Below, piece by piece: positions 21,143 through 31,192 of a stretch of 32,734 nt of DNA. The stretch is from Zarconia navalis LEGE 11467 (GTDB taxonomy: Bacteria > Cyanobacteriota > Cyanobacteriia > Cyanobacteriales > Geitlerinemataceae). The position numbers were made by a program, and so were the translations under genes. The notes below the pieces were generated by a model. It did no database searches, was not told the origin of the DNA, and saw only the letters and a list, made by a program, of their open reading frames with translations. Where the stretch lies: contig NZ_JADEXN010000001.1 in the NCBI RefSeq assembly GCF_015207075.1, forward strand, positions 1 to 32,734. The letters run 5' to 3'. Numbering within the stretch: position 1 is the stretch's first letter; each line of letters opens with the position of its first letter.

Positions 21143-21275
21143 TTTTCACGATCGCAGTTCTCAGACCCGTGAGGTACAGCCATAACCCACCGTCAAGCCA
21201 GAGGACAGAATCGTCGCAGTTCTGGTGTAAAAAGCAGAAAACGATGCATGAAGATGAGCCGTATTTCTGTAAACT

Positions 21276-21423
21276 GTTTTAACGCCGATCGACTGACAAA
21301 TTTGTTTGATGTCGGTTGGGCGACCGCGAAACCCAACAACCACGACCGATCGCGTAGCGACTCATCCCATCTGCGAGATTTAAACCGCCTCCAAAATATT
21401 TGTCAGTCGATCGGGTTTTAACG
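21276..21423. mobile_element. MITE-like element with 17-bp terminal inverted repeats and 9-bp target duplication
   Basis: Positions 21285-21414 (130 bp) are bounded by perfect 17-bp inverted repeats, CCGATCGACTGACAAAT on the left and its reverse complement at 21398-21414. Immediately outside are identical 9-bp direct repeats, GTTTTAACG, at 21276-21284 and 21415-21423, as left by transposition. No coding sequence fits inside. An internal dyad, GTTGGG (21315-21320) with CCCAAC (21332-21337), is present. The right end lies 29 bases before the dapL start. This is a non-autonomous insertion: the 9-bp duplication suggests mobilisation by a DDE transposase of an IS family that makes 9-bp duplications. 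No matching transposase is in the window. Confidence 0.8.
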
Positions 21424-21452
21424 TATTTCAACGGCGTTCGTCGCAATCTACT

Positions 21453-22688
21453 ATGGCAACCATCAACGACAACTATCTCAAACTCAAAGCCGGTTATCTC
21501 TTCCCTGAAATTGCCCGACGGGTGAATGCATTTGCAATCGCTAACCCCAACGCACCCATTATCAAACTCGGTATTGGCGATGTCACCGAACCTCTCCCCC
21601 AAGCCTGTCGCACGGCGATGAAGACGGCAGTGGAGGAAATGGGCGATCGGGCAACCTTCAAAGGATACGGCCCCGAACAGGGCTACGGTTGGCTGCGAGA
21701 GAAGATTGCCGCGCAAGACTTCCAGAAACGAGGATGCGAGATCGATGCCTCGGAAATCTTCGTCTCCGACGGCGCAAAATGCGATACGGGCAACATTCTC
21801 GATATTTTTGGCAAAGATAACACGATCGCCGTGACCGATCCGGTCTATCCCGTGTACGTGGATACCAACGTGATGGCGGGCAATACCGGAACCGCCAACG
21901 ATGGGGGCAAATACGGCGGGTTGGTGTATATGCCCATTACTGCCGAAAACGACTTCACCGCCGAGATTCCCACCGAAAAAGTCGATCTGATTTATTTATG
22001 CTTCCCCAACAATCCCACCGGGGCAACGGCGAGTAAAAGCCACCTCAAAGCCTGGGTGGATTACGCCAAAGCCAACGACTCGATTATTTTCTTCGATGCG
22101 GCTTACGAAGCCTTTATTACCGACGCAGATTTGCCCCACTCCATCTATGAAATTGAAGGGGCCCGAGATTGCGCGATCGAATTTCGATCGTTTTCTAAAA
22201 ATGCCGGCTTCACCGGAACCCGCTGCGCTTATACGGTGGTGCCGAAAACCCTGACGGCTGCTTCTGCCGACGGGTCGGATGTGGAACTGTGGAAGCTGTG
22301 GAATCGCCGCCAGTCCACTAAATTTAATGGGGTTTCTTATATCGTCCAGCGCGGGGCGGAAGCGGTATATTCGGACGAAGGACAAGCGCAAATTGCCCAA
22401 CTCGTCGGTTTCTATCTAGAGAATGCGAAGATAATTTGCGATCGCCTTACCGCAGCCGGACTCAGCGTTTATGGCGGAGTCAACGCCCCCTACGTTTGGG
22501 TCAAAACTCCAAATGGTCTGACGAGTTGGGATTTCTTCGATAAATTGCTGCAAGCGGCGAATGTCGTGGGAACTCCCGGTTCTGGCTTTGGGGCTGCCGG
22601 GGAGGGCTATTTCCGAATTTCAGCGTTTAACAGTCGGGACAATGTCGAAGAAGCGATGAAGCGGATTGGCGACACGTTTAAGGGATAG
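21453..22688 (+). CDS. dapL: LL-diaminopimelate aminotransferase
   Basis: A 411-residue PLP-dependent class I/II aminotransferase. It converts tetrahydrodipicolinate directly to LL-diaminopimelate using glutamate, giving lysine and peptidoglycan precursors by the pathway cyanobacteria share with plants. The PLP lysine is Lys249 in [12 protein letters not shown]. Other conserved segments are [62 protein letters not shown] and [18 protein letters not shown]. The length matches the family. The start is the ATG at 21453. The MITE-like insertion just upstream means the native promoter has been moved back or replaced. A hairpin plus T run follows the stop. Confidence 0.97.
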
Positions 22689-30499: not shown

Positions 30500-31192
30500 T
30501 CAGGTGTAGAATTCTGGGATAAGGGAAGGATATTCAGTGGTGTGACCCGCCCCAGCCATGAGAGCTTGCACGAAGAAATCCATCACCGAACGTCCCTGGA
30601 AACGACAAGTTTGAACCACACTAAGCAATTGGGCCGTTTGCTCGAAACGCTCCAAAGAGCGAGAGCCACCACTGACCTTGCGTTTAGTTACCGCTAAGCG
30701 CAAAGACCTTTCGGCGAGATTGTTATCGGGTGGGATGTGAGGATGGTCGAAAAAATACCACCATTGGGATGCTTTTTGTTTGAGAGAGCGCAATAACTTG
30801 CCAGCAATAGCTCCAGCGACAGAACTCCAGGTAGAAAGAGTCAACTCCACCTGAGTTTTGAATCCCTGTGCCCACTGTTGGTAGTCCGACTCATCCCCAT
30901 TCTTTTGCCATTGGCGATAGTGGCGAAAGGCTTCATCAATCAGAGTCACGAAGGCTTCCCCAATCTCTCGGTTGTGAAGTCCCGGCTGCTGAATTAATCT
31001 GAGAAAGTGACGGCGTAGATGAGCCAAACACTTCTGCTGAGCCACTTGTTGGATTTCCACTTTCACCGAGGCGGCTTCTGCGAGATTTCCTCCGCAGACA
31101 CTGCACTCAACAGGACGCAGAACTTCAATTCGGTCTATTCGCCCAAATCCTTTGCGGGTCTTTCCTTTTATTTGATTTAGCTGCGTAGCAGC
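30500..31192 (-). pseudogene. IS66-family transposase with large internal deletion (remnant B)
   Basis: One open frame of about 230 codons carries two non-adjacent parts of an IS66 transposase. First is the zinc-ribbon segment KGFGRIDRIEVLRPVECSVC and VKVEIQQV. It is followed at once, at about 31040, by the late-domain QKCLAHLRRHFLRLIQQPG, then HPHIPPDNNLAERSLRLAV (catalytic Glu motif) and KVSGGSRS, ending SLIPEFYT inside the terminal repeat. The roughly 200 residues normally between, which carry the first catalytic aspartates, are missing, so it is inactive. The 5' end stops at TAA 31193-31195, next to the Uma2 remnant. A palindrome AGCTGC-GTA-GCAGCT (31179-31193) marks that junction. Confidence 0.75.

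Follow-up and report, generated by a model that had tools for sequence, protein, structure and literature searches.

A 130-bp MITE with the ends of an IS4-type insertion sequence just upstream of dapL in Zarconia navalis

What is the short, sharply bounded segment that lies just upstream of dapL in Zarconia navalis LEGE 11467, where did it come from and what would it do to the gene? The window analyzed here is a 32,734-nt stretch of this genome, and all positions refer to it. A sequence-only reading had proposed a MITE with 17-bp exact inverted termini and 9-bp exact direct flanks, and both features were borne out. The 130-bp segment (21285–21414) opens with a 17-bp left terminal inverted repeat, CCGATCGACTGACAAAT (21285–21301, plus strand), the exact reverse complement of the 17-bp right one, ATTTGTCAGTCGATCGG (21398–21414, minus strand). 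It is flanked by two identical copies of GTTTTAACG, the left target-site duplication at 21276–21284 and the right one at 21415–21423. Between the ends lies a 96-bp interior with a dyad, GGTTGGGCGACCGCGAAACCCAACA (21314–21338), and the same kind of repeat is found inside other family members. An imperfect inverted repeat reaches beyond the ends (21278–21309 with 21390–21421). As is typical of a MITE, the element is short, bears terminal inverted repeats and contains no transposase ORF. It has no coding capacity of its own; the one ORF that crosses it (21279–21716, minus strand) runs antisense to dapL and does not argue for a gene.

The gene downstream is dapL, encoding LL-diaminopimelate aminotransferase (21453–22688, plus strand), as had been proposed; the product scores 607.9 bits with TIGR03542, against a cut-off of 364.7. 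From the dapL ATG, the end of the element is 38 bp away and the end of the right duplication 29 bp, the latter being the distance given in the sequence-only reading. When all 32.7 kb of the window were scanned exhaustively, four pairs of exact inverted 14-mers at most 600 bp apart came out; of the four, the 21285–21414 element alone is flanked by a direct repeat of 9 bp, also with three mismatches allowed. By simple base-matching arithmetic, such ends and duplication together are expected about 1e-8 times or less per window of this kind. The earlier judgement that a chance origin is very unlikely agrees with both results.

A search of 99 relatives with the DNA of the whole element yielded partial matches only, so end patterns were used as the query instead. 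Among the short matches were contig ends of one genome (G083). By eye these are copies of an element of ~148 bp whose ends are similar; one has GTTGACGAC as its flanks and the other CACCAAAGC. Pairs of GACNGACAAA and its inverse 90–120 bp apart were found in 14 of the order's 391 genomes, while the reversed control matched in 3. Around each pair, outer offsets of 0–11 were then checked for direct repeats of 9 bp, one mismatch being tolerated. Such a duplication showed up in 14 elements; all of them have it at an identical position, with the boundary 6 bp beyond the GACNGACAAA core, and 10 of the 14 duplications are perfect. This common boundary defines the family end as C[TC]G[AG][TC][TC]GAC[TG]GACAAA, with few variants (e.g. 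TTG at the tip). The left terminal repeat of the window element fits this pattern. Both of its ends have CCGATCGAC where the common form has CTG[AG]TTGAC, which makes them a variant of the common end.

The family is widespread. The exact end CTGRTTGACNGACAAA is present in 115 of 391 genomes, with the reversed control at 0 or 1 everywhere, and reaches 76 occurrences in a single genome (G113). At least nine genera of the order have elements whose family ends are bordered by differing 9-bp duplications; the sequence-only reading had named such copies, alike in their ends and unlike in their flanks, as a check. The target-site duplication has the fixed length expected of a MITE: 9 bp in the window element and most relatives, and 10 bp in a copy on contig C384 of its own genome and in some insertion sequence (IS) copies. 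The internal dyad has local matches to members in G083, G131 and G107 and to a stretch of G015. Of the papers searched, none prints the 12 bases at the core of the family end.

The assembly to which the window belongs comprises 4.2 Mb in 435 contigs and is 61% complete. In it the full 130-bp segment occurs once, with no near-identical second copy, and exact ends of the common form occur six times. On contig C384 lies an element of 226 bp whose flanking duplication, GTACCATGCG, is 10 bp long. Contig C262 carries a 140-bp element that is 65% alike to the window element over nearly its whole length (E 3e-6); its interior outscored 100 of 100 shuffles, and no flanking duplication was seen. This last element (L324, genome G000) runs from position 262 of the contig, and a frame downstream, from 673, reads by eye like rplU (ribosomal protein L21). 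The insertion had been called young. The intact ends and duplications of the window element fit a fairly recent event and support it only loosely, without giving a date; the interior has no near-identical copy in the 61%-complete assembly.

The parent element was located from pairs of ends 1.2–1.4 kb apart and then by protein search. The pairs of ends led to an element of 1,328 bp in G165 that shares the family ends, is flanked by perfect copies of GGCCAAGCT and has a broken transposase. Intact copies, 1,320–1,322 bp long, turned up in G113 and G121 in the protein search; they too have these ends, and their 9-bp duplications are perfect and vary between copies. These are the full-length relatives carrying a transposase that the sequence-only reading had suggested looking for, and they share the same kind of ends with the MITE. 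Open frames in the G113 and G121 copies span 394–419 codons and encode a transposase of ~409 aa of the DDE type. It passes PF01609 (DDE_Tnp_1; 33.8 bits, cut-off 23) and matches the NCBIfam IS4 model NF033591 with E 9e-37 at 126.9 bits, under the cut-off of 152. We therefore call it IS4-like, and by these model scores the IS4 family appears to be its closest relative. The IS4-family signature is Y-(2)-R-(3)-E-(6)-K; the translation contains YGLRFDIEEAFLDDQ, with Y, R and E correctly spaced and Q in place of K. Target duplications in the IS4 family are ~9–13 bp long, and those of the parent elements are 9 or 10 bp. A sequence search of solved structures gave no match to the parent transposase.

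Relatives of the parent with the same ends are found on plasmids of Synechocystis PCC 6803 (pSYSM), Acaryochloris marina and Pseudanabaena, and a Deinococcus relative has related ends. More distant IS4-like elements in G057, G031 and G089 (L206, L171 and L167) and on a Deinococcus plasmid (L226) have ends like CTGACTGCCTGACA and 9–10-bp duplications, so end and transposase seem to have changed in step.

In G113 the MITE and the ~1.32-kb IS occur together. Counting paired ends, this genome has 14 IS-sized elements and nine 215-bp MITEs, all nine of the latter with a perfect 9-bp duplication. The MITEs match the IS of the same genome over 17–20 bp at each end only, plus one weak 31-bp match, so their interiors come from elsewhere. 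Two copies (L318 and L322) have an identical duplication, CGACAGAAC, which may perhaps reflect a duplicated region or a favored target. Transposase fragments of the parent group were also found in the window's own genome. No intact transposase of the group was found in this 61%-complete assembly, and the missing 39% could hold one. The window itself contains an IS66 transposase fragment (30500–31066, minus strand) that matches the C-terminal part of the model only. As a candidate parent it was rejected, the parent found being IS4-like; IS66 elements make 8-bp duplications.

We regard it as nearly certain that the window element is, in identity and origin, a MITE with the ends of an IS4-type IS. 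MITEs of this kind were already known, and it is a further member. We infer that the transposase of an IS4-like IS moved this non-autonomous element in trans. The enzyme would recognize the ~16-bp ends and join the segment to its target with a 9-bp stagger, which would yield the duplicated GTTTTAACG. The landing site is the dapL leader, directly after TAAACT, a probable −10 box.

Other cyanobacteria indicate what the insertion site looked like. The motif [AG]TAA[AG]CT stands 26–48 bp 5' of the dapL ATG, mostly at 34–38, in 73 of 89 leaders, and farther upstream (66–120 bp before the ATG) in only two. The consensus of 69 alignable leaders (e.g. L228–L307), which corresponds to 21269–21284 of the window, is AATTAGCAGTAAGCTGTTTTAGGGCGTTTT, probably the core promoter and leader start of dapL. 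The window form of the conserved TAAGCT hexamer is TAAACT (21270–21275, plus strand), which is probably the −10 box. The left duplication starts at the base right after TAAACT (in its GTAAACT version) and overlaps a GTTTTA that is conserved in relatives' leaders. With TAAACT taken as the −10 box, the insertion would lie at or just after the transcription start, and so probably in the mRNA leader and not in the promoter. The sequence-only reading had left the choice between promoter or leader. The leader is the more probable of the two, just downstream of the native −10; a promoter supplied by the element was rejected, since no promoter-like site in it passed a promoter scan.

On the other side of the element, the rest of the leader up to the ATG (21424–21452, plus strand) can be aligned to relatives. 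With the element removed, and with the first codons included, the window leader is, for example, 88% identical to that of Kastovskya adunca (50 bp) and 85% to that of G001, a genome of the same family (54 bp). The motif is absent from 9 of 12 same-family dapL leaders, so the comparison is not best made with the closest relatives. Same-family genomes gave no full-element match, and in the relatives' loci scanned no family-related end (at most two mismatches) lies in the 400 bp before dapL. The orthologous site is thus empty in relatives, which gives an empty site of the kind that had been sought in a close strain, here in other genera. The exact empty site of the window would read TGTAAACTGTTTTAACGTATTTCAACGG.

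The sequence-only reading had also suggested that the internal dyad could fold in RNA. The element with its duplications has a predicted fold of −51 kcal/mol (z −4.5), and the dapL leader is predicted to fold at −55.5 with the element versus −6.0 without it. Transcription would most likely still start at the native promoter and read through the element, and the dapL mRNA leader would gain 139 nt and a strong hairpin.

Such a fold, together with the CGATCG contained in the ends, might instead point to a chance palindrome built from CGATCG words, which are abundant in the genome, or to a conserved dapL attenuator. A chance palindrome would account neither for the matching 9-bp duplications nor for so many matching ends in other places; a conserved RNA or attenuator was rejected because the element has no Rfam match and was not seen in relatives' dapL leaders. 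We consider either origin extremely improbable.

Given a MITE, the remaining question is its effect on dapL. The element could be a working regulatory part of the gene, kept for that reason, with expression set by the hairpin or by TTGTCA in its right end acting as a −35. Its position in the conserved leader of a key gene, its strong fold and the orientation of TTGTCA towards dapL would all suit such a role, and regulation by such an insertion is known from Neisseria, where a Correia element follows the mtrCDE promoter (PMC10969869). No promoter-like site passed the scan, however, Rfam returned nothing, none of the relatives examined has kept the element there, and a single observation gives no sign of selection. 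We find a regulatory role unlikely. The insertion may also be neutral or slightly harmful baggage, with dapL expressed from its native promoter about as before, and here our judgement is evenly poised. Nothing is disrupted in the probable −10 box or the duplicated start region on the promoter side, nor in the ATG-proximal leader on the other; against this, a 5'-leader hairpin as strong as −51 kcal/mol would often alter translation or stability. Inert baggage concerns the effect alone and is compatible with the MITE identification. From the sequence, a modest effect on dapL expression, or none, appears most likely.

The short end sequence ties many cyanobacterial hairpin repeats to one group of IS4-like transposases, so such repeats can now be annotated and their mobility tested. 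The window adds a clean natural case of an insertion inside a conserved leader, that of dapL, and what it does to expression can be tested directly. In the fullest version of this account, a widespread and apparently unnamed IS4-linked family of cyanobacterial MITEs, with unrelated hairpin interiors between constant 16-bp ends, would here have retuned an essential lysine/peptidoglycan gene through a 5' leader born of an insertion. Taken as a whole, that version is improbable.

Among known systems, the IS4 family includes IS10 and IS50, which likewise make 9-bp duplications. Its cyanobacterial counterparts here are the ~1.32-kb elements of G113, G121, G165 and the plasmids, with CTG[AG]TTGAC[TG]GACAAA ends, duplications of 9–10 bp where readable and a DDE transposase. 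The window element, in contrast, is a 130-bp derivative without a transposase, and its interior is not visibly IS-derived. The MITEs of Anabaena sp. 90 are short (77–541 bp), form hairpins and are mostly intergenic, and in their genome the authors detected no IS whose ends match (PMC3542288); they resemble the window element as short cyanobacterial hairpin MITEs, a likeness drawn from their description. Nezha (Zhou et al. 2008, as cited in PMC10969869) is comparable in that it, too, is a cyanobacterial MITE. The Correia element of Neisseria is a MITE that lies immediately downstream of the mtrCDE promoter, where a regulatory effect has been shown (PMC10969869). Although its sequence is unrelated, it shares a setting with the window element: both lie directly downstream of a promoter, in the window a probable one.
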